Below, piece after piece: positions 1 through 58,886 of a DNA stretch of 64,000 bases. The stretch lies in NCBI GenBank assembly GCA_017473115.1, contig JAFUNC010000010.1, positions 1-64,000 of the forward strand. Reading direction: 5' to 3'. The notes beneath the pieces are model-generated. The model ran no database searches and was not told the origin of the DNA. It saw nothing but the letters and a program-made list of their open reading frames with translations. Numbering within the stretch: position 1 is the stretch's first letter; the number at the start of each line of letters is the position of its first letter. The position numbers and the translations under genes are program-made. Source of the stretch: Lachnospiraceae bacterium (lineage in GTDB: Bacteria; Bacillota; Clostridia; Lachnospirales; Lachnospiraceae).

Positions 1-486
1 AAAGCATTAAAATTACCAACATTGATAAAACTGCCCCTGTTGTCAGCGAAATTACAGCAGATAAAACAAGTCCTACAAACGGTAAGGTAGTGCTCTCCAT
101 TGAGGCAAAGGACAGTGTGGGTTTGCCTGCAAAATATGCAAGTTGGAATGGAGGGGTATACGGTAACAGCAATCAATATGAGGTTACAGCCAACGGAACG
201 TATAAGGTGACAGTAAAGGATTTGGCCGGAAACACGGTGAGTAAAAGCATTAAAATTACCAACATTGATAAAACTGCCCCTGTTGTCAGCGAAATTACAG
301 CAGATAAAACAAGTCCTACAAACGGTAAGGTAGTGCTTTCCATCGAGGCAAAGGACAGTGTGGGTTTACCTGCAAAATATGCAAGTTGGAATGGAGGGGC
401 ATACGGTAACAGCAATCAATATGAGGTTACAGCTAACGGAACGTATAAAGTAACAGTGAAGGATTTAGCAGGGAATAAAACGACCA
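1..486 (+). repeat. 243-bp tandem coding repeat (two near-identical copies)
   Basis: The sequence from 1 to 243 recurs at 244-486 with only a handful of mostly synonymous changes over the first 200 bases. The period of 243 bp equals 81 codons, one Ig-like domain. Later repeats in the same gene are diverged, so the first two copies reflect recent duplication or gene conversion and are a likely place for copy-number change. Confidence 0.9.
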
Positions 487-1889
487 AAAGTATTAAAATC
501 AGCAATATTGATTTGGAGGTTCCTGTTGTCAGTGAGATCAAAGCAGACAAAACGGTACTTACCAATGATAAAGTAATTTTGACCGTAGAAGCAACGGATA
601 ATGTGGGTCTCCCTGAAAAATATGCAAGTTGGAACAGTCAGGAATATGGTTCATCTAATCTGTATGAGGTTTCGGAAAACGGAATCTATCATGTACAAAT
701 CAGGGATATTGCCGGAAATACAGCAATCAAAAGCATTGAGATTAACAATATTGATAAGGAAAATCCGGTGGCAGGTGAGATTGTTGCAGACAAAACGGAG
801 GCTACTAACGATAAAGTTATACTTTCGATAGAAGTAAAAGATAATATGGACTTACCGGAGAACCATATCAGTTGGAACGGTGGAGAACCCGGAAACAGTA
901 ACCGATATGAAGTTACGGAAAACGGGACCTATCAGGCAGTAATCAAAGATGCGGCCGGTAATACCGTTACCAAGACCATTGAAATAAATAACATTGATAA
1001 AACCGCGCCGGAAATTGTTTCCGTTATTACCACCCCTGTGCCCTGGTACTATGATAATTGTACAATTACAGTGGACGCAACGGATAAAGGCGATAGCGGA
1101 GAAGGAAGCGGCCTCGCGAAGGAAGCGTATTCTTGGGATGGTGGTAGAACCTGGATATCTGAAAATACTTATGAAGTATCGGAAACCGGTACAATCGTTA
1201 TTTCAGTAAGAGATAATGCAGGAAATATTGCACAAGCAGAAGTGAATGCAGTAAAAGAAAAAGTCGCAAAAAAGGAGGATGAATCAGGAAATAGCGAAAC
1301 GGAAACGGAACAGTCGCATAAGGATTCTTCTGCGGTTGAAACAACGCCGACAGTTTCAATTACAGCAGATGTAGCAGAACAGACAGAAACTACAGAAAAT
1401 ACAAGTGAAGAAAAAACGGAAGAAGGTAGCAAAGACTATATTTTGTCGGAAATAGAAAAAGAAGAAACGGTATTTGAGCAGGAGTCCTTTTTGGAAGAAA
1501 ATGAAATGTTAGAACTGGATACATTGGAGAATGATAAAAATGACGCGAACGGAATTGTAATATTGTGTATTTGGGCGGGATTGTTACTTGGATTGAGCAT
1601 TCTGTTTATTGCGGTATATGTGTTATTTGGAATGTGTCGCGTATATGAGATTAGTCCTGCAGGAAAAGAACATTATCTTGGCAGGGTAGGTATCGGTTAC
1701 CGTAAAAAGAATTTTATTGTTAAAATCGGAATGCGAATGATTGAGAATGCGTCGGAAAGGATTTTAATGATAAGGATTCCTGGATGGTTTGTAAAAATAA
1801 ATGAAAACCGACCTTTGAGAATCATTGCAGGAGCACTTGTAATTACAAAGTATGTAGAGAAAGAAATTCAGTTTCATATACAGGTGTAG
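1..1889 (+). CDS. Ig-like repeat surface protein with C-terminal membrane anchor (5' end outside window)
   Basis: The reading frame is already open at the first base, so this is the 3' part of a larger gene; no start is visible. The protein is a chain of about five Ig-like beta-sandwich repeats of roughly 81 residues, each with the pattern NIDKTAP..ADKT..N.KV.L...A.DN.GLP..Y.SWNGG..G..N.YEV..NGTY...V.DLAGN. A Glu/Thr/Ser-rich acidic stretch (about 1250-1545) follows, then one strong transmembrane segment (about 1552-1632) and a basic C-terminal part of about 85 residues that looks intracellular. This is the layout of an exported protein held in the membrane. No enzymatic domain or LPXTG signal is seen. 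The first two repeats are almost identical in DNA. Function is probably adhesive or structural, but this is inference. Confidence 0.8.
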   Translation, partial: SIKITNIDKTAPVVSEITADKTSPTNGKVVLSIEAKDSVGLPAKYASWNGGVYGNSNQYEVTANGTYKVTVKDLAGNTVSKSIKITNIDKTAPVVSEITADKTSPTNGKVVLSIEAKDSVGLPAKYASWNGGAYGNSNQYEVTANGTYKVTVKDLAGNKTTKSIKISNIDLEVPVVSEIKADKTVLTNDKVILTVEATDNVGLPEKYASWNSQEYGSSNLYEVSENGIYHVQIRDIAGNTAIKSIEINNIDKENPVAGEIVADKTEATNDKVILSIEVKDNMDLPENHISWNGGEPGNSNRYEVTENGTYQAVIKDAAGNTVTKTIEINNIDKTAPEIVSVITTPVPWYYDNCTITVDATDKGDSGEGSGLAKEAYSWDGGRTWISENTYEVSETGTIVISVRDNAGNIAQAEVNAVKEKVAKKEDESGNSETETEQSHKDSSAVETTPTVSITADVAEQTETTENTSEEKTEEGSKDYILSEIEKEETVFEQESFLEENEMLELDTLENDKNDANGIVILCIWAGLLLGLSILFIAVYVLFGMCRVYEISPAGKEHYLGRVGIGYRKKNFIVKIGMRMIENASERILMIRIPGWFVKINENRPLRIIAGALVITKYVEKEIQFHIQV

Positions 1890-1895
1890 CAATCA

Positions 1896-1930
1896 ATAAG
1901 GCGAAAGTACATAAAATACTTTCGCCTTAT
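1896..1930. terminator. Bidirectional terminator between convergent genes
   Basis: A 14-bp perfect stem (1896-1909 with 1917-1930; core AAGGCGAAAGTA) with a 7-base loop sits between the Ig-repeat gene and the convergent corA gene. A/T-rich flanks on both sides make it usable on either strand. Confidence 0.8.
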
Positions 1931-1937
1931 AATAAAA

Positions 1938-2882
1938 TTATTTGAAGAGTTTATTTTTCATAAAGAAGATGGTTACCAATAAGCCTAATACCAAAGATGC
2001 GGCTACGATGATAACAAATCCAAAAGGACTGTCGGCAAAAGGCATTCCGCTCGATGCCACGTTCATACCGTATGCGCTGAAAATCATAGTAGGGATAGAT
2101 AAAACGATGGTGACTATTGCTAAAGTTTTCATTACGGTATTTAAGTTATTGGAAATCACAGAAGCAAAAGCATTGGTCATACCGTTCAGAATGCCGCTGT
2201 AGATATTAGCCATCTCAATTGCCTGTTTGTTTTCTATGATGACATCTTCCAATAATTCTTCGTCTTCGGGATATTTTTTGAAACGTTCATTTCTGAAAAG
2301 TTTTTCCATTACTACTTCGTTGGAACGCAGGGAGGTTGTGAAGTAAACCAAACTCTTTTCCAACTTAAGAAGTTCAAACAAGGCACTGTTTTGAGTAGAC
2401 TTGTGTAAGTCATTTTCCAAAACTTCACTTTGTCTTTCAATATTACGCAGATATTGCAGATAAAGAGAGGCTGTGCGATAAAGTAATTGCATTAAAAAAC
2501 GTGATTTCATTGCCGTACTGAAGTCTCTTACCCGTCCGTCCACAAAGGCACGTAAAACCGGGCTTTCTTCCATGCACACGGTAATTATGGTTTTTTTTGC
2601 AATAAAAACAGACAAAGGAATTGTATCGTATAATTCCTTCTCGGTATCTTCTTCAATGGTGGGAATATTTACCAAAACCATTGTATAATTATCCTCGTAA
2701 GCAAGTCGGGAACGTTCATCGGTATCCAATGCGGATTTTAAATCATCCACATCAATAGAAAACTTCTGTGAAATGTCGTGAATTTCACTTTCGGAAGGAC
2801 GGATCATAGAAATCCAACAACCTTCGGCAGGTGCATCCAGAGTGCGAAGACTCCGGCCTTCTGTAAAATAGTAGTGTACCAT
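1938..2882 (-). CDS. corA: CorA-family magnesium transporter
   Basis: Divalent cation channel of the CorA/MIT family, mainly for Mg2+ uptake across the cytoplasmic membrane, working as a homopentamer. The 314-residue length fits the family. A large soluble N-terminal domain is followed by two C-terminal membrane segments, the first ending in the diagnostic YGMN signature (MIFSAYGMNVASSG); the protein ends in a short basic tail (KNKLFK). I chose the ATG at 2882 (MVHYYFTEG) because AGAAGG lies just upstream; an in-frame ATG at 2915 would run through a structured leader and lacks a binding site. The gene is alone on this strand, preceded by an upstream ORF and an RNA switch-like leader (2885-2988) and a good promoter. 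Selectivity for Mg2+ rather than Co2+ or Ni2+ cannot be read here. Confidence 0.93.
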   Translation of the reverse strand: MVHYYFTEGRSLRTLDAPAEGCWISMIRPSESEIHDISQKFSIDVDDLKSALDTDERSRLAYEDNYTMVLVNIPTIEEDTEKELYDTIPLSVFIAKKTIITVCMEESPVLRAFVDGRVRDFSTAMKSRFLMQLLYRTASLYLQYLRNIERQSEVLENDLHKSTQNSALFELLKLEKSLVYFTTSLRSNEVVMEKLFRNERFKKYPEDEELLEDVIIENKQAIEMANIYSGILNGMTNAFASVISNNLNTVMKTLAIVTIVLSIPTMIFSAYGMNVASSGMPFADSPFGFVIIVAASLVLGLLVTIFFMKNKLFK

Positions 2883-2884
2883 TT

Positions 2885-2934
2885 CTAACCTTCTTTCTAT
2901 GCCGTATGGGCACAAAAAAAAGAGGTTAGCCCAT
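2885..2934 (-). promoter_or_regulatory. corA leader: alternative helices masking the ribosome binding site
   Basis: In the corA transcript, CUAACC...UCUUU around the upstream ORF stop codon (2919-2929) can pair with AAAGAAGGUUAG (2885-2896), giving 11 base pairs with one bulge that cover the corA Shine-Dalgarno (2889-2894). A second helix, AUGGGC (2929-2934) with GCCCAU (2906-2911), crosses the first, so the two cannot form together except as a pseudoknot. The stop codon UAA of the upstream ORF (2926-2928) lies within the masking strand, so a ribosome terminating or paused there would expose the corA site. Pairing is seen in the sequence; regulation is inference. Confidence 0.55.
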
Positions 2935-2988
2935 CAGCATTGCATATTCATTTAAATAAGTGTTTGCGTGATAGGGGTCCGCGTCCAT
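2926..2988 (-). CDS. 20-residue upstream (leader) peptide of corA
   Basis: A short ORF begins with ATG at 2988, eight bases after a perfect AGGAGG (2997-3002), a better ribosome binding site than that of corA itself. It encodes MDADPYHANTYLNEYAMLMG and stops 43 bases before the corA start. It lies on the same transcript as corA, downstream of the promoter at 3019-3047. The strong initiation site and the placement of its stop codon inside the masking helix argue for a regulatory leader rather than chance. Leader peptides upstream of Mg2+ transporter genes are known in enterobacteria (mgtL, corL); no sequence similarity to those is claimed. Confidence 0.65.
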   Translation of the reverse strand: MDADPYHANTYLNEYAMLMG

Positions 2989-3018
2989 TTTTCTTACCTC
3001 CTGTAAAGTGATAATATA

Positions 3019-3047
3019 AGTATATTTCCCCAAAAGAAAAAAGTCAA
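3019..3047 (-). promoter_or_regulatory. Sigma-A type promoter of the corA leader transcript
   Basis: Read on the - strand: TTGACT (3047-3042), a 17-base spacer, TATACT (3024-3019). The predicted start near 3012 leaves about 10 bases before the AGGAGG of the leader ORF. Confidence 0.7.
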
Positions 3048-3085
3048 CCATCAGTCCGGAAAGTACCGGCAGATTTTCGTGGCAG

Positions 3086-3114
3086 TTGCAAATTAAAAAT
3101 AAGTGATGTATACT
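3086..3114 (+). promoter_or_regulatory. Sigma-A type promoter of the VTC/DUF4956/CotH genes
   Basis: TTGCAA (3086-3091), 17-base spacer, TATACT (3109-3114), about 45 bases upstream of the VTC gene. It is divergent from the corA leader promoter. Confidence 0.6.
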
Positions 3115-3166
3115 AGTAGCGGTTTGAAAAAATTGATTTTTGAAAGAAGAATTCATATAAAAGTGT

Positions 3167-3880
3167 ATGGAAACAAAGAAAAACAGAAAATTCAGATATG
3201 AGAATAAATATATCGTTAATGTTGCAGAAATAGAGTTGTTGCGAAACCGAATTTTGGGAATTTGTGATATGGACAAATATGCAATCGGAGACGGAGAATA
3301 TAATATTCGAAGCCTTTATTTTGACAATTATGGCAGTTCCTCTTTTTATGACAATGAAATTGGAATTGAACCAAGAGAGAAATTTCGTATTCGAATTTAT
3401 AACTGTAATTCGGATGTGGTTGTTTTGGAGCGGAAAATCAAAGTAGGCGGTAAGATTTCCAAAGACAGAGCCGTGATTGACAAAGCATTTGCAGAAGCAA
3501 TTATGGCAGAAGATTTAAATCATATCCGATACGATGAAACAAATCAGTTGATTAATCATTTTATGTTGAAATATCAAACAGAATATTTGCGACCGAGAAT
3601 TATTGTAGATTATGTAAGAGAGGCTTATGTTTCCGAATTGGAAGATATTCGTATTACGTTTGATAAAGAAATCAGTTTTTCGGACCAAATAAATCATTTT
3701 TTTGATAAAGATTTATTTTTGCAACCGATTATGCAGATTGGAAAAGAGTTAATGGAAGTAAAATATACGGAAATGTTACCGGATTATATTCATAGTTCCT
3801 TAAATTTAGGGAAATTGCAACAAAGTACGTTTTCAAAGTACTATTTGTCGGAAAAAATGAGAAGAGAGGGAGTAATATAG
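3167..3880 (+). CDS. VTC-domain (polyphosphate polymerase-like) protein
   Basis: A 237-residue protein covered by a VTC domain, the tunnel-fold catalytic domain of the yeast vacuolar transporter chaperone that makes polyphosphate from ATP. Features seen: RYENKYIV at residues 10-17, RSLYFDNY, the basic strand REKFRIRIYN, and LERKIK; basic residues of this kind line the tunnel. There is no membrane segment. It lies one base before the DUF4956 membrane protein and just upstream of a CotH gene; VTC-DUF4956-CotH is a recurrent gene set in Firmicutes. Whether the bacterial form truly makes polyphosphate is not established from sequence. The ATG at 3167 is kept although its ribosome binding site is weak. 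Confidence 0.85.
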   Translation: METKKNRKFRYENKYIVNVAEIELLRNRILGICDMDKYAIGDGEYNIRSLYFDNYGSSSFYDNEIGIEPREKFRIRIYNCNSDVVVLERKIKVGGKISKDRAVIDKAFAEAIMAEDLNHIRYDETNQLINHFMLKYQTEYLRPRIIVDYVREAYVSELEDIRITFDKEISFSDQINHFFDKDLFLQPIMQIGKELMEVKYTEMLPDYIHSSLNLGKLQQSTFSKYYLSEKMRREGVI

Positions 3881-3881
3881 T

Positions 3882-4556
3882 ATGACATTCCAAGATATTA
3901 TTAAATCATCTTTTATGGAGCAGTTTCAAACCGGAAATCTTGGTTTGAAGGAGGTTCTGCTTGCATTGGGATTTGCTGTGATTATGGCATTATATTTGTT
4001 TGTTGTATATCGCTTTTTTGTCAGAAAATCAATGTATAATCTTCATATGAATCTTGCAATTGTGGGGATGACAATTGTGACTGCGGCAGTGATTTTAACC
4101 ATACAATCCAATCTTGTTCTTTCATTGGGTATGGTTGGTGCCTTGTCCATCGTCAGATACAGAACGGCGGTCAAGGATCCCATGGATTTGTTTTTTATGT
4201 TCTGGGCAGTGGCGAGCGGTATTATGTGCGGAGCCAACCAGTATATTTTAAATCTTGCAGTAACGGTTGTTTTGACACTGGTGGTGTTTGTTTTGGCACA
4301 GTTGCCGTCAACTAAGGCTCCTTATGTTTTGGTAGTAAATGGTGAAAATGCAGAGGTGGAAGATGCCATAACGGATATTTTGCAGGAGTGTTGTTCTTAC
4401 TATAAGGTAAAATCAAGAAACATATCCAAGTCATCGGTAAGAATCATTATAGAATTGCGTGCAAAAGAACCCAAGAAAGTTACGGATGGCGTGGCAAAAT
4501 TAGATAAAGTAACAAACTTATCTCTTTTAAGTTATGAAGGAGATGTGGTTGCATAA
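3882..4556 (+). CDS. DUF4956 integral membrane protein
   Basis: A 224-residue protein with about four membrane segments in its first 150 residues (VLLALGFAVIMALYLFVVYRF; LAIVGMTIVTAAVILTI; two more around LFFMFWAVASGIMCG and LAVTVVLTLVVFVLAQL), a conserved-looking loop SIVRYRTAVKDPMDLFF, and a soluble C-terminal domain of about 75 residues resembling a small alpha/beta sensor fold. It starts two bases after the VTC gene and is surely cotranscribed with it. Family DUF4956 has no assigned function; the constant association with VTC and CotH proteins suggests a membrane partner of the VTC enzyme, which is inference. Confidence 0.85.
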   Translation: MTFQDIIKSSFMEQFQTGNLGLKEVLLALGFAVIMALYLFVVYRFFVRKSMYNLHMNLAIVGMTIVTAAVILTIQSNLVLSLGMVGALSIVRYRTAVKDPMDLFFMFWAVASGIMCGANQYILNLAVTVVLTLVVFVLAQLPSTKAPYVLVVNGENAEVEDAITDILQECCSYYKVKSRNISKSSVRIIIELRAKEPKKVTDGVAKLDKVTNLSLLSYEGDVVA

Positions 4557-4590
4557 ACCCATGCGGTTAAGGTAACAGAGAGGAATCTTG

Positions 4591-6855
4591 ATGAGAGCAA
4601 AAGGATTAAAAAAGGCAATTCCGGCAATCTTGCTGTTAACGATTTGTAGCATCATCGGCGTTGTAATCTATATCTTTTCTGCTAATGAGGAGACGCTGTA
4701 TGTTTCACATGAGAGTGGTATATACAGTGGCTCTTTTGATTTAAAGATATATTCATTTCAAGAAGGAAAGATTTATTATACAACCAATGGACAGGAACCT
4801 ATGGCCGGAGCGGAAGGAACCTATGAATATTCCGGACCGATTAAATTGGAATGTAACGGCGAAACGGTTACGTATTCTATTCGTATGTATTGTTTGTATG
4901 AAGATGGCAGTGTCTCACCGGTTTATGACAGAGACTATATATTGGATCCGTTGGGGAAGGACAGATTTACAACGGATTATGTAGTCTCTCTTACGGGAGA
5001 TGAGGAGTTGCTGTTTGGAGATGAAAAAGGAATTTTTGTCAGAGGAACCCAATTCTATGAATATGTGGAAGCAAATCCGGACACGGATGTGTTGAATGAA
5101 ATTATTCCTGCCAATTATTATGAGGATATTGAAGTACCTGTACATGCAAGTATGTTTTTGAAAGACGGAACACAGATTATTGAGCAGGATTGCGGCATTA
5201 AAATATATGGTAATGTTACCAGACAGTTAAATCAGAAGTCCTTCCGTTTGTTTGCCAGATATGAATATGATGATGTTAATGAATTTTCTTATCCGTTTTT
5301 TGAAGATATTTATACGCAGGATGGAAAAGAACCGATTACGAACTGGCAGCGTTTGTCTTTTCACAATGGCGGAAACGACAACGGATATGCATTTATTCGT
5401 AGTGAATTGGTAGGAGAATTGGGACGTCAGTCAGGGTTTCAGGATACATTAGGCGCCGAAAGTGTTACGGTGTATATTAACGGAAAATATCAGGGAGTAT
5501 ATTGGCTGCAAAATTCATTTGATGACAGATATTTCAAAGAAAAATATGGTGATTATGCGGGAGAAATGGCTGTCTGTGAAGGTGGTTTAAGTGCGATGAA
5601 TACAGAGGCTGTTGAAACGGAAGCGGAGCAAGAATGCGCAAGCGATTACCGTGAATTCATTCAATGGGTTGAAAATGCGGATTTAAATGATGATGCAAAC
5701 TGGAATCGTGTTTGTGATACGATTGATATAGAAAATTTTGCACACTATTTTGCAATTGAACATTATAGCGGAAATCTTGATTGGCCTCATGGGAATGTAA
5801 AACTGTATCGCTATATTTGTGCTGAAGGAGAAACATATCGTGAAGGAACTGTTTTTGACGGAAAGTACAGATATCTTCTTTTTGATACTGATTATAGTAT
5901 GGGACTGATGTTTTTCGGCTTTTTCGGTTATAATGCAGCAGATACGCGAATGAATGATTTTCTGGTAACAAATGAGCATACCGGTTTGTTCCGTGCATTG
6001 TCTCAACGTAAAGAATTTCGCGACATGTACTCTGCGAAGATACTGTATCTGATGAATGAAATTTTTACAAGAGATAATGTGTCGGATACTATGTATAATT
6101 TAAACGTAAAAAGATACGATGAATTGAATTATATGATTATGCAGACGGACATTTTAAAAGATTCCATTTGGAAGGAATGGGGTGTTGGAGAAGGAGATAT
6201 GGCTCAAACCGAGCAGGAGTGGGCACGCATATTGGAATACACGGTTGCAAGACCACAGTATGTAATAGGAGAATTGCAACAGGAATGGCAATACGGAGAT
6301 ACCATTCTCATGCATATGAGTATGCAGGAAGAGGGCAACCTACTGATAAACGGTATGAATGCCGGCAAGGAATATGAAGGACAGTGGTTGGAAGGTGTAA
6401 CTGCTGAAATCAGTTGTGAGTTACCGGTTGGAATGACGGTGCAGGGGTGGACCGTGAATGGCGAGTATGCGGAAGGTGAAGCGTTACAATTGACGGAAGA
6501 ACTTTTAGCAGGAGCAAACGGTGATTTGACTATTGTGCCGGTAATACAATCAGTCAGTGCAACAAGTTTGACGGTATCTTCCTATAGCATTGGCGGTGCG
6601 CAAGATTATGTGGTGTTGTATAATAACGGAACACAAACGCTTAACCTTAAGGATTATGCCTTGGCAGACAGTGAAGACTCCTTGTCGGGTGCAATCTTGC
6701 CCGGTCATCAGTTGGCTCCGGGAGAGAAATATTATGTATATGGAGCGAAGTATACAGGAATAATGCAGGAGAACAGTACGCAGGTGGCTTTCTCCTGGAA
6801 TGATGAAGAGCACATCTATCTCTACAGTGAATCGGCCGGTATAACGGTATACTAA
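4591..6855 (+). CDS. CotH-kinase family exported protein with chitobiase-like and lamin-tail domains
   Basis: A 754-residue protein anchored by an N-terminal membrane segment (about residues 9-29). In order: a beta-sandwich resembling the chitobiase C-terminal domain (about 45-118; IYYTTNGQEP), a CotH domain (about 185-480) with IKIYGNVTRQLNQKSFRLFA, INGKYQGVYWLQNSFDDRYF and LLFDTDYSMG, and a C-terminal lamin-tail-like domain (about 655-750; VVLYNNGTQTLNLKDYALAD). CotH proteins are atypical protein kinases first known from spore coats; many clostridial members are extracellular and of unknown substrate. ATG 4591 is used because AGAGAGG precedes it; the TTG three bases earlier is less likely. 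It closes the VTC-DUF4956-CotH set. Confidence 0.88.
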   Translation: MRAKGLKKAIPAILLLTICSIIGVVIYIFSANEETLYVSHESGIYSGSFDLKIYSFQEGKIYYTTNGQEPMAGAEGTYEYSGPIKLECNGETVTYSIRMYCLYEDGSVSPVYDRDYILDPLGKDRFTTDYVVSLTGDEELLFGDEKGIFVRGTQFYEYVEANPDTDVLNEIIPANYYEDIEVPVHASMFLKDGTQIIEQDCGIKIYGNVTRQLNQKSFRLFARYEYDDVNEFSYPFFEDIYTQDGKEPITNWQRLSFHNGGNDNGYAFIRSELVGELGRQSGFQDTLGAESVTVYINGKYQGVYWLQNSFDDRYFKEKYGDYAGEMAVCEGGLSAMNTEAVETEAEQECASDYREFIQWVENADLNDDANWNRVCDTIDIENFAHYFAIEHYSGNLDWPHGNVKLYRYICAEGETYREGTVFDGKYRYLLFDTDYSMGLMFFGFFGYNAADTRMNDFLVTNEHTGLFRALSQRKEFRDMYSAKILYLMNEIFTRDNVSDTMYNLNVKRYDELNYMIMQTDILKDSIWKEWGVGEGDMAQTEQEWARILEYTVARPQYVIGELQQEWQYGDTILMHMSMQEEGNLLINGMNAGKEYEGQWLEGVTAEISCELPVGMTVQGWTVNGEYAEGEALQLTEELLAGANGDLTIVPVIQSVSATSLTVSSYSIGGAQDYVVLYNNGTQTLNLKDYALADSEDSLSGAILPGHQLAPGEKYYVYGAKYTGIMQENSTQVAFSWNDEEHIYLYSESAGITVY

Positions 6856-6907
6856 AAATGCATCATAAAAAGCAATTTTAAATCATACATTTTATCAAAG
6901 AAAATAT

Positions 6908-7726
6908 ATGAGGACAATTGTGAAGAAGATTCATGAACTGCTAAAAAAAATAAAAGATAATAGAACCAAAGCGGCGTTGATAATGAGTGTCAGTGCCGCT
7001 TTTATGGTGTTGACTCTTTGCATATGTATTTCCGGTTCTAAACAGGAAATAGAGGCGAGCAATATGTATGGTGACCGTAAATTGCCGATTTACTGCGTGG
7101 AAACGGAGGAGAAAGTGGTTGCGCTTTCTTTTGATGCGGCTTGGGGAAATGAAGATACGGATAAAATATTGGAAATTCTGGAACGCCAGGATGTAAAAGT
7201 GACGTTTTTTATGACCGGAGGATGGGTATCTTCTTACCCTGAGGACGTGAAAAAAATACATGATGCAGGGCACGAACTGGGAAATCACAGTGAAAATCAC
7301 CTAAATATGTCTGAACTTTCCATGTCAGAGATTGAAGAAGAAATTATGGAGGTACATAATCGGGTAAAGGACCTTACCGGATATGAAATGTGTGTATTCC
7401 GCCCGCCGTATGGCGATTATGATAATGATGTTATCACCGGTGTGGAGAATTGTAACTATTATGCAATCCAATGGGATGTCGATAGCTTGGATTGGAAAGA
7501 TTATGGCGTGGATTCCATTATCAAAACCGTAACCTGTCATGAAAATTTGGGATGCGGCTCAATCATATTATGTCATAACGGCGCAAAATACACAGCGGAC
7601 GCACTGGAGGAAATGATTATTGCATTAAAAGAACAGGGCTATTCCTTTGTGAAAATGTCAGATTTGATTTACAGGGAAAATTATAAAATGGATGTTACGG
7701 GAAGGCAGTGTCCTTGCGAGGAGTAG
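6908..7726 (+). CDS. Membrane-anchored polysaccharide deacetylase (NodB fold, PdaB-like)
   Basis: A 272-residue protein with one N-terminal membrane segment (about residues 22-42) and a NodB homology domain. All catalytic motifs are visible: the metal-binding Asp in SFDAAW (D76), the HxxxH pair in GNHSENH (H127, H131), RPPYGDYD, WDVDSLDW, and the final ILCHNG with the catalytic His. The enzyme would remove N-acetyl groups from peptidoglycan or another amino-sugar polymer outside the membrane. Its length and anchor fit the PdaB group, several of which act in sporulation. It lies 52 bp after the CotH gene and may be cotranscribed. Substrate is not decidable from sequence. Confidence 0.9.
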   Translation: MRTIVKKIHELLKKIKDNRTKAALIMSVSAAFMVLTLCICISGSKQEIEASNMYGDRKLPIYCVETEEKVVALSFDAAWGNEDTDKILEILERQDVKVTFFMTGGWVSSYPEDVKKIHDAGHELGNHSENHLNMSELSMSEIEEEIMEVHNRVKDLTGYEMCVFRPPYGDYDNDVITGVENCNYYAIQWDVDSLDWKDYGVDSIIKTVTCHENLGCGSIILCHNGAKYTADALEEMIIALKEQGYSFVKMSDLIYRENYKMDVTGRQCPCEE

Positions 7727-7809: not shown

Positions 7810-7835
7810 GTAACCGTAATTAAATATCAGATATA

Positions 7836-7921
7836 CGCTAGGGGTGCTAATTTGCTGAGACGGGGCCTTGGTCCTAACCCTCATTACTTGAACCGGATAA
7901 TACCGGCGGAAGGAAGCAGTG
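7836..7921 (+). promoter_or_regulatory. TPP (THI element) riboswitch aptamer
   Basis: The conserved cores are present in order: GGGGTGC (7841-7847), GCTGAGA (7854-7860), then ACCCTCATTACTTGAACCGG starting at 7877 and the closing GGCGGAAGGAAGC. These are the P2/P4 junction and pyrophosphate-sensing sequences of the thiamine pyrophosphate aptamer. The gene downstream is a thiamine transporter, as expected; thiamine pyrophosphate binding should lower its expression. Confidence 0.96.
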
Positions 7922-7923
7922 AT

Positions 7924-7998
7924 ATACAAACTCGTTCGAATCCGGGTTTGTATGTTTGATTCGAAAGTAACCTCCTGCGTATGCAAAGGAGGTTTTTT
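7924..7998 (+). promoter_or_regulatory. Expression platform of the TPP riboswitch: nested alternatives ending in a terminator that contains the Shine-Dalgarno
   Basis: Three perfect 8-bp helices can be drawn. ATACAAAC (7924-7931) pairs with GTTTGTAT (7946-7953). TTCGAATC (7935-7942) pairs with GATTCGAA (7958-7965) and crosses the first, so they exclude each other. AACCTCCT (7969-7976) pairs with AGGAGGTT (7987-7994), followed by a T run to 7998, forming a terminator-like hairpin whose 3' strand is also the thiT ribosome binding site AAAGGAGG. One hairpin could therefore act on both transcription and translation. Confidence 0.75.
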
Positions 7999-8682
7999 AT
8001 GTCATTCTTTTTTACGGCAGAAGAGTATGACGGAGTAACATCCTACCTTCCCACAACCGCAGGTTATGGAGTGTTAATTGTTTTAATGTTGGCGATTCTT
8101 TTCATTGCCTGCTACTGTAACGGCAAAAAAAATGTCAAACTCAGTAGTAAACAATTGGCGTTTTCTGCAATGGCCATGGCACTTGCGGTGGTAACTTCCA
8201 TGATTAAATTATTTGAGTTACCAATGGGTGGTTCGGTTACTTTGTGCAGTATGCTCTTTGTTGTACTTATCGGCTATTGGTTCGGACCGAGAGCCGGTCT
8301 TATGACCGCCATTGCATACGGATTTCTTCAGTTGATTCTGGAGCCGTACATTATACATCCGATGCAGATGATGGTGGATTATATTTTTGCTTTTGGAGCA
8401 CTGGGATTGTCCGGGATTTTTACCGACAAAAAACATGGCTTGCTCCTGGGCTATTGGGTAGCGGTATTCGGACGATTTGTATTTGCGTTCCTTTCCGGAA
8501 TGATTTTCTTCGGCTCTGCGGCAGCAGACTATAATATGTCCATACCGGTTTATTCGGCAGTGTATAACGGATCCTATCTGTTGGCGGAAGGAATTATTAC
8601 CACAATTGTTATTTGTATTCCGCCCGTTAATAAGGCATTGGCGGGAATCAAAAAGATGGCGCTTGCCGAGAAAAAATCATAG
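7999..8682 (+). CDS. thiT: Energy-coupling factor thiamine transporter substrate-binding protein ThiT
   Basis: S-component of an ECF transporter that binds thiamine in the membrane; it needs the shared EcfA/A'/T module, which is not in this window. The 227-residue protein has six membrane segments; the thiamine-site region is visible as GPRAGLMTAIAYGFLQLILEP. The ATG at 7999 follows AAAGGAGG by six bases, whereas the in-frame ATG at 7981 lies within the riboswitch terminator loop and is rejected. Regulation by the TPP riboswitch directly upstream confirms the substrate. A terminator follows at 8693. Confidence 0.95.
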   Translation: MSFFFTAEEYDGVTSYLPTTAGYGVLIVLMLAILFIACYCNGKKNVKLSSKQLAFSAMAMALAVVTSMIKLFELPMGGSVTLCSMLFVVLIGYWFGPRAGLMTAIAYGFLQLILEPYIIHPMQMMVDYIFAFGALGLSGIFTDKKHGLLLGYWVAVFGRFVFAFLSGMIFFGSAAADYNMSIPVYSAVYNGSYLLAEGIITTIVICIPPVNKALAGIKKMALAEKKS

Positions 8683-58475: not shown

Positions 58476-58549
<74 letters not shown>

Positions 58550-58606
58550 TTTTGTGTGGTTCGACCACGCAGGATAAAGGCGAGGAAGCCCTAGCATAAT
58601 TAACAT

Positions 58607-58681
58607 GGTGGGTATGGCGCAGTCGGCTAGCGCGCCAGATTGTGGCTCTGGAGGCCGAGGGTTCGAGTCCCTTTACCCACC
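58607..58681 (+). tRNA. tRNA-His (anticodon GTG)
   Basis: 75 bases including the extra 5' G(-1) opposite discriminator C, the tRNA-His identity element. Acceptor GTGGGTA with TACCCAC; anticodon GTG at 58642-58644. Confidence 0.95.
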
Positions 58682-58687
58682 CTTTAC

Positions 58688-58759
58688 TGGGCTATCGTCA
58701 AGCGGTAAGACACAAGATTTTGATTCTTGCATTCGCTGGTTCGAATCCAGCTAGCCCAG
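58688..58759 (+). tRNA. tRNA-Gln (anticodon TTG)
   Basis: 72 bases; acceptor TGGGCTA with TAGCCCA, T arm GGTTCGAATCC, anticodon TTG at 58720-58722. The U-A first pair is typical of tRNA-Gln. Confidence 0.95.
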
Positions 58760-58813
58760 CTTACTTTGCGAAATATTGCATAAGATACAATCTTATGGAT
58801 ATCATATAAATAC

Positions 58814-58886
58814 GGGCCATTAGCTCAGGTGGTAGAGCACTTGACTTTTAATCAAGTTGTCCGGGGTTCGAGTCCCCGATGGCTCA
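58814..58886 (+). tRNA. tRNA-Lys (anticodon TTT)
   Basis: 73 bases; acceptor GGGCCAT with ATGGCTC (one G-U pair), anticodon TTT at 58847-58849, discriminator A. Confidence 0.95.

Follow-up and report, generated by a model that had tools for sequence, protein, structure and literature searches.

How is a CorA-family transporter controlled in a genome in which the familiar Mg2+ control of Bacillota, the M-box riboswitch, is not detected? The question is raised by the corA locus of a Lachnospiraceae bacterium (assembly GCA_017473115.1), which lies within the first 64,000 nucleotides (nt) of contig JAFUNC010000010.1. This whole stretch is referred to below as the window, and all coordinates are given on it; the entire corA unit is on the minus strand. 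Covariance-model searches gave no match to the M-box (ykoK, RF00380) in the window, in its own genome or in 31 genomes of the same genus. The corA leader carries a short upstream open reading frame (uORF) with its own Shine-Dalgarno (SD) sequence. The computations show three competing helices and a conserved uORF that is associated with Mg2+ transporters. A slowing of the ribosome by the peptide, Mg2+ as the signal and the direction of the response are inferred. On balance, we favor reading the leader as a translational attenuator, in which stems 1:2 and 3:4 alternate with stem 2:3 and which is read by a ribosome on the conserved peptide. A ribosome held on this peptide would then probably decide whether the transporter is made.

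A conserved peptide start ahead of corA

The uORF, preceded by AGGAGG, is the first open reading frame (ORF) of the corA message and lies 3' of a promoter-like site; a 20-codon ORF with such a site had been reported in the preliminary description of this DNA, made from the sequence alone. The product of the downstream gene matches the Pfam CorA family (PF01544, E-value 1.5e-57). Its score against the NCBIfam model TIGR00383, 135.9 bits, is under that model's cut-off of 200.75, so we can but infer the ion transported by the window CorA.

Among the 31 genus genomes, eight have a CorA match at E <= 1e-40. Each of these eight contains the pattern GGAGG-N4-11-ATGGANNNNGRNCC a single time, always immediately 5' of corA; the remaining 23, which are without this corA, have no match. 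As a control, the pattern read backwards matches 3 of the 31. GGAGG is found 4-11 nt ahead of the uORF start in all eight corA leaders. Seven of the peptides begin with MDADPYHA and one with MDSGPYHE, and the remainder of the peptide varies. Within codons 1-8 of the seven MDADPYHA leaders, all four variable columns are silent third positions.

The family set was built on a protein match at E <= 1e-60, present in 151 of 397 genomes. From it we fetched 109 places, the top 89 by score and 20 lower-scoring ones, leaving out the other lower-scoring places. Together with the eight genus leaders this gave 117 leaders, of which L027, L057, L062 and L102 are shortened by contig ends. A uORF was defined as an SD-preceded ATG ORF of 8-60 codons with the start M[DE]..P. 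Such a uORF is present in 40 of the 117 leaders, representing 27 genera by their genus labels. Dinucleotide shuffling (200 rounds) yielded on average 0.245 such uORFs per 117 leaders and at most 4, and the reverse strand yielded none in the 117. The acidic residue 2 (Glu/Asp) and Pro5 are the selection criterion for the 40-leader set; position 4 is Gly in 28 of them and Asp in 7, and position 6 is Ser in 20, Tyr in 10 and Cys in 4. A looser start pattern is matched in 47 leaders. The starts gained include MDSGSSYHAE and MESGSCYHIE, whose appearance is intermediate between the MDADPYHA form and the MESGPSP form. Over these 47 leaders the uORF spans 14-42 codons, the C-terminal half of the peptide differs in length and sequence, and so does the sequence 3' of the uORF among leader groups. 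Codon choice is biased as well: codon 6 is AGT, TAT, TGT, GAT or GGT (purine-U ending) in 37 of the 40 uORFs, and Pro5 is never encoded by CCA (codons 5-6 of the window uORF are at 2976-2971). As judged from these codons, nucleotides or tRNA choice are constrained beyond what the peptide alone explains.

Searches with AAGGAN{4,9}ATGGARRSYGGNCC found matches in 4 of 391 genomes class-wide and in 9 of 397 family-wide, five of the nine being, by position, corA leaders already in the set of 117. The N{4,9} spacer is too tight for this leader type, in which the spacing is often 10-11, and these counts are therefore no census. Phylum-wide, ATGGAYKCNGRNCCNTAYCA was found in 2 of 398 genomes, one of them that of the window, and the backwards pattern in 1, so the PYH form is rare beyond the genus, an Erysipelotrichaceae metagenome-assembled genome (MAG) and Desulfosporosinus. 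Searches of an open-access library, covering main texts and few subscription journals, brought up no recognizable description of this leader or peptide and no occurrence of five of its peptide strings.

Peptide start, Mg2+ transporters and the M-box

A scan for AGGAGG-N4-10-ATGGAYKCNGRNCCNTAYCA over a contig collection of 84,980 species (by its own description) returned 18 loci: seven corA leaders of the genus, one locus in the Erysipelotrichaceae MAG and ten in Desulfosporosinus. In the MAG, MDSGPYHSSLKEHN, which starts with MDSGPYH, stands ahead of a corA; the encoded protein shares 43% identity with the window CorA. The Desulfosporosinus ORFs are 28-34 codons long and start with MDSGPYH in nine loci and with MDAGPYH in L131. 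An MgtE-type ORF begins 0-14 nt past the uORF in nine of these ten loci, the contig ending in L124. MgtE_N and CBS domains were confirmed in the L118 product, which the remaining eight products resemble by eye. No MgtE domain was seen in the window's own genome, which is 85% complete.

All nine Desulfosporosinus leaders that were scanned (L124 was outside the scan) have an M-box 5' of the uORF. In L118, L119, L122, L123, L125, L127, L128, L131 and L132 the order is M-box, a hairpin that by eye resembles a terminator, and then the uORF. The Desulfosporosinus mgtE messages are candidates for two stacked Mg2+ controls on one message. At L133, where the contig reaches only ~200 nt upstream, no M-box was seen. 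The best non-genus orthologues of the window CorA, L009 and L010 (one genus; 68 and 67% identity), have an M-box in their leaders and no M[DE]..P-type uORF; among the 20 scanned of the 70 loci without a uORF, these two are the only ones with an M-box. Thus, the M-box stands on orthologous corA genes and in tandem with the peptide start before Desulfosporosinus mgtE, but not in the window or its genus. That one peptide start precedes transporters of two unrelated Mg2+ families, in one of them behind an M-box, is the strongest, though indirect, argument for a Mg2+ signal. Judging from this association with transporters and the M-box, Mg2+ is most likely what the leader responds to.

Competing helices in the leader

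The window leader (2860-3025) folds at -39.8 kcal/mol compared with -27 +/- 3.3 kcal/mol for its shuffled versions (z = -3.87; 0 of 200 as stable). In the proposed arrangement, strand 1 lies within uORF codons 3-9 and strand 2 at the stop codon; strand 3 comprises the 5' arm of the terminal hairpin together with its loop, and strand 4 contains the corA SD. This is the four-strand logic of the ermC and trp attenuators. Helices A, B and C (Table 1) correspond to stems 1:2, 2:3 and 3:4, and helix B draws on bases of both A and C. The preliminary description had contained two helices; helix A was missed. The SD-pairing helix, given there as 11 base pairs (bp) with one bulge, is longer, consisting of 7 bp (2929-2923/2891-2885), a 2-nt bulge and 12 bp (2920-2909/2903-2892), and the uORF stop codon does lie in its lower stem. 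The crossing helix of 6 bp, apparently the core of helix B, can be extended to 12 bp. The hairpin C region has a z of -3.85 against shuffles, and the corA SD is unpaired with a probability of 0.05, compared with 0.33 in shuffled surroundings. According to this folding, the corA ribosome-binding site of the window is within stem 3:4.

We then considered the same arrangement in relatives, with strand windows set by the positions of the uORF and the corA SD alone and not by sequence. The 31 leaders for this pairing test were drawn from the 47 loose-pattern leaders. Near-duplicates (L002, L003, L035, L038, L051 and L058) and one odd leader (L041) were left out beforehand, and L004, L005, L020, L028, L043, L046, L047, L068 and L082 failed the length limits. 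The predicted pairings have mean z values of -0.86 +/- 0.21 (1:2), -0.89 +/- 0.24 (2:3) and -1.85 +/- 0.25 (3:4), with z < -1 in 12, 12 and 21 of the 31 leaders, respectively. For the unpredicted pairings the values are +0.04 +/- 0.14 (1:3), -0.28 +/- 0.17 (2:4) and +0.41 +/- 0.08 (1:4). When an 18-nt strand 2 was slid along 36 leaders, its fit to strand 1 was -0.60, -0.30, -0.76, -0.71 and -0.45 at -6, 0, +6, +12 and +18 from the stop; outside the stop region it was -0.07 (-24), +0.02 (-18), -0.18 (+24), -0.01 (+30) and -0.68 (+36, n = 6). In these calculations strand 2 is located at the uORF stop.

Competition between B and C was counted where helix B reached -8 kcal/mol or lower and shared at least 4 nt with the pairs of C. 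It occurs in 35 of 42 leaders, or 29 of 36 without near-duplicates. First estimates for helix B (mean z -2.09 over 42 leaders; overlap with C in 41 of 44) were discarded as inflated, the supposed B of the compact leaders L001-L004 being hairpin C itself. Over 44 leaders the hairpin region has a mean z of -2.20. The mean probability of an unpaired corA SD in these leaders is 0.35 compared with 0.48 in shuffled surroundings, and it is lower in 32 of them. At least three SD bases are paired in C in 29 of the 44, so SD sequestration is not universal among the relatives. Statistically, over 31-42 leaders, the folding calculations support the alternative stems 1:2 and 3:4 versus 2:3.

The stop codon inside the anti-SD strand, part of the preliminary description, is seen in L001-L004, that is, in four of the eight genus leaders; in L005-L008 the stop lies beside or within strand 2. 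In the modeled general element there are four strands, with the peptide N-terminus on strand 1 and the stop at strand 2. Overall, the original observation is confirmed and is larger than noted, comprising a conserved uORF, competing helices and a wider distribution. A refuting outcome named there, a lack of conservation of the ORF, its stop position or the paired bases in related corA leaders, did not arise.

Table 1. Features of the corA unit in the window
Feature	Position	Strand	Remarks
Promoter-like site, sigma-70 type, TTGACT-17-TATACT	3047-3019	-	10/12 consensus bases
uORF Shine-Dalgarno AGGAGG	3002-2997	-	sequence
20-codon leader ORF (uORF), MDADPYHANTYLNEYAMLMG*	2988-2926	-	ORF list, conservation
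Peptide core D-A-D-P-Y-H, codons 2-7	2985-2968	-	conserved; family form [DE]-x-[GD]-P-[SYC]
Strand 1, inside uORF codons 5-8	2975-2965	-	5' side of helix A
Helix A, 10 bp, one bulge	2975-2965 with 2939-2930	-	codons 5-8 pair with sequence just 5' of stop
Strand 2, just 5' of uORF stop	2940-2929	-	partner of strand 1 in helix A, of 2911-2899 in helix B
Helix B core, 6 bp	2934-2929 with 2911-2906	-	folding
Helix B extended, 12 bp, one bulged A	2940-2929 with 2911-2899	-	-18.3 kcal/mol; positions by hand
Helix B 3' strand	2911-2899	-	upper stem and loop of hairpin C
Hairpin C (strands 3:4)	2929-2885	-	7 + 12 bp, sequesters corA SD
uORF stop codon	2928-2926	-	within lower stem of hairpin C
corA Shine-Dalgarno GAAGG	2893-2889	-	paired within hairpin C
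corA, CorA-family divalent-cation transporter, 314 aa	2882-1938; ATG 2882-2880	-	Pfam

The promoter-like site was previously called a clear promoter, and its agreement with the consensus stands. Eight such sites occur in 1800-3400, compared with 4.8 +/- 2.4 in shuffled sequence, so it is a consensus match only. The same region contains no intrinsic terminator-like sites.

On the plus strand, the region divergent from corA (3167-7726) encodes a VTC-domain protein followed by a DUF4956 membrane protein (Pfam); we take the long ORF 4588-6855 to be CotH-like and the ORF 6908-7726 to be polysaccharide deacetylase-like. A thiamine pyrophosphate (TPP) riboswitch (RF00059, 65.1 bits) is located at 7830-7931 (+), ~50 nt 5' of ORF 7981-8682 (+), presumably a thiamine transporter. 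ORF 90-1889 (+) contains similar repeats of ~80 residues ('KDSVGLPAKYASWNGG...') and an apparent membrane segment near the C-terminus, and by eye would be a repeat-rich surface protein. Four tRNA genes are clustered at 58476-58886 (+).

Ribosome position, rival explanations and known systems

According to the attenuator model, with the ribosome moving freely or absent, the RNA would settle as 1:2 plus 3:4, and a terminating ribosome would cover strand 2. In either case, the corA ribosome-binding site of most leaders would be closed in 3:4. A ribosome held over the acidic/proline start (MDADP here; MESGP or MDSGP elsewhere) would cover strand 1. Strand 2 would then be available to strand 3 while strand 4 is yet to be transcribed, so that the site would be open and CorA made. 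The most likely signal would be low intracellular Mg2+, weakening ribosomes on such sequences and giving more transporter when Mg2+ is short. A stall is preferred over drop-off because covering strand 1 favors B, and freeing it favors A plus C.

Ribosome positions were simulated at equilibrium, without kinetics, with the leading edge assumed to be 16 nt from the first P-site base; at what we term the strand-3 checkpoint, strand 3 has been made and strand 4 not yet. With codon 5 in the P site, helix B at this checkpoint goes up in 20 of 44 leaders and down in 2 (L004 and L076), and at full length it goes up in 14 and down in 3 of the 44. In the window, a stalled ribosome at the checkpoint raises B from 0.25 to 0.98 and lowers A from 0.61 to 0. 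Some leaders switch completely even at full length; in L037, for instance, A is 0.90, C 0.74 and SD opening 0.32 without a ribosome, and B is 0.91, C 0.01 and SD opening 0.93 with a stalled one.

A number of results weigh against this model. Even under the loose pattern, 70 of the 117 leaders are without a uORF; in 26 of the 70 a promoter-like site <=70 nt from the corA match leaves scant room for such a leader. Outside the genus most starts carry a single acidic residue (M-E-S-G-P), which makes them less similar to the EPDP motif of the enterobacterial leader peptide MgtL, and the Desulfosporosinus leaders adopt a different fold. Compensatory changes, which the preliminary description had suggested looking for, are scarce. 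In 10 leader-pair comparisons (0.82-0.98 identical, some leaders used twice), the three helices have 398 unchanged pairs, 27 with one-sided changes, only 2 with two-sided changes and 37 broken. Covariation between close relatives is thus weak, and most other leaders are too divergent 3' of the uORF for column-wise comparison; the structural case comes from the pairing enrichment over 31 leaders with its internal controls. In the folding of the full-length window, L002 and L003 leaders, C (0.92-0.94) beats B even with strand 1 covered, so for the window clade the model requires co-transcriptional kinetic control. L004, of the same clade, is one of the two leaders in which stalling lowers B. SD opening reaches 0.8 or more in 3 of 44 leaders without a ribosome, in 10 with a stalled one and in 11 with one at the stop (mean opening 0.35, 0.47 and 0.50, respectively); by these counts, equilibrium folding fails to single out the stall. 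An earlier SD-accessibility run on 46 leaders, with a ribosome placed on codons 3-6 or on the stop codon, likewise gave no uniform direction. For both reasons the direction of the response is a proposal. Finally, if low Mg2+ were to cause drop-off and free strand 1, the model would predict that corA is off.

One rival reading, close to that of the preliminary description, is one of coupling: on completing the uORF, a ribosome would occupy the anti-SD strand and open C, so that corA would be switched on when the leader is translated efficiently and off when its translation aborts. L001-L004 have their stop codon within C, and placing a ribosome on it gives an SD opening of 0.99-1.00 (window 1.00), so completed uORF translation could be the on switch in these leaders; 11 of the 44 leaders are opened to at least 0.8 in this way. 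In the window clade, equilibrium folding favors this explanation over a stall. However, SD accessibility with the ribosome at the stop is 0.01-0.40 in L005-L007, L037 and L055, where C remains at 0.83-0.98, and most leaders behave alike. Should leader translation suffer at low Mg2+, the response would also have the wrong sign for an importer of Mg2+. We give this reading a minor though appreciable chance. As for the translation-controlled switch proposed earlier, it is partly upheld in silico by a conserved uORF and exclusive helices that would place corA under ribosome position, and its stop-in-anti-SD form is not general.

Rather less probable is drop-off of the kind known for MgtL. Ribosomes are described as dropping off at the EPDP motif of MgtL at low Mg2+, and EttA as stabilizing those that have Pro3 in the P site (PMC11282234). 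By analogy, at low Mg2+ the ribosome would leave the acidic/proline start, the RNA would refold and corA would be expressed, perhaps by escaping Rho-dependent termination. The peptide, earlier called not obviously related to enterobacterial ones, resembles MgtL at the motif level, by description only: M-D-A-D-P has the spacing of acidic residues and Pro of EPDP, also before a Mg2+ transporter. On the other hand, a free strand 1 gives A plus C, which in the full-length window without a ribosome is the closed state (A 0.81, C 0.93, SD opening 0.05). MgtL acts on Rho-dependent transcription termination via drop-off (PMC11282234), whereas the SD-sequestering hairpin here predicts translational control, and arrest. 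It is quite improbable that the leader RNA is an unrecognized metal riboswitch, with the uORF incidental or merely an aptamer carrier. The bias at codons 5 and 6 would fit nucleotides constrained beyond the peptide, but the frame, the SD and the start of the peptide stay constant even as uORF length and downstream sequence vary, and changes within the peptide core are silent. Furthermore, no Rfam family scores above the gathering threshold in the window leader or in the leaders of 20 scanned uORF-bearing relatives. At E-values up to 5, the window leader gave only a match to a small nucleolar RNA, judged to be chance. In L021, a Clostridiales-1 small RNA (RF01699, 120.3 bits) is located at 1020-1172, ~200 nt 5' of the corA-leader uORF. 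The slightest chance is given to the uORF product being a functional small protein, expressed together with the transporter, and the folding being incidental: the conserved N-terminus would suit it, but neither the variable C-terminal half nor the pairing pattern with its internal controls would.

Mg2+-reading leader peptides acting through the ribosome have been characterized in enterobacteria (PMC11282234, PMC8092293). The closest in design to the attenuator model is Salmonella mgtQ, an 8-codon ORF with Asp2 and Glu5 before mgtB, where stems 1:2 and 3:4 alternate with 2:3 and the mgtB ribosome-binding site is in 3:4 (PMC8092293). Shared features, with the peptides compared by description, are a short ORF with an acidic codon 2 before a Mg2+ transporter, the stem logic and the site in 3:4. 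However, mgtQ lies between mgtC and mgtB in a PhoP-dependent operon (PMC8092293), whereas the uORF here is first in the message, has 14-42 codons and precedes CorA. CorL of Escherichia coli and Salmonella is likewise a uORF in a structured corA leader, and a Mg2+ response is reported there; it is described as Rho-dependent, it starts with UUG, corL is reported to be poorer in Pro and acidic residues than mgtL, and the structure differs (PMC11552253). In Mycobacterium tuberculosis the M-box is followed by a conserved short ORF, Rv1805A, with a conserved N-terminal Pro, mostly at position 7; by description it is mycobacteria-specific and of unknown role (PMC12810186). The 'corA motif' riboswitch candidate is also a structured leader before corA, but is reported in gamma-proteobacteria only (PMC6429828), and the Thioalkalivibrio mgtE motif is reported from other groups only (PMC11109978). 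In Bacillus subtilis, Asp-Pro repeats stall ribosomes without elongation factor P (EF-P), and EF-P or YfmR resolves the stall (PMC11381351).

It is quite possible, though somewhat less likely than not, that these leaders encode an arrest peptide of Bacillota that senses Mg2+ and has so far gone undescribed. Its start, M-[DE]-[SAG]-[GD]-P-[YS]-[HP], would itself be the sensor and would act via different RNA folds on unrelated transporters (CorA in Lachnospiraceae and the Erysipelotrichaceae MAG, MgtE in Desulfosporosinus). In some lineages it would have taken the place of the M-box, and in others it would work in tandem with it. If this is true, a peptide start common to two unrelated Mg2+ transporter families would represent a second, independently evolved ribosome-based Mg2+ sensor, and its short, near-invariant motif would make the action of low Mg2+ on nascent acidic/proline chains directly testable.

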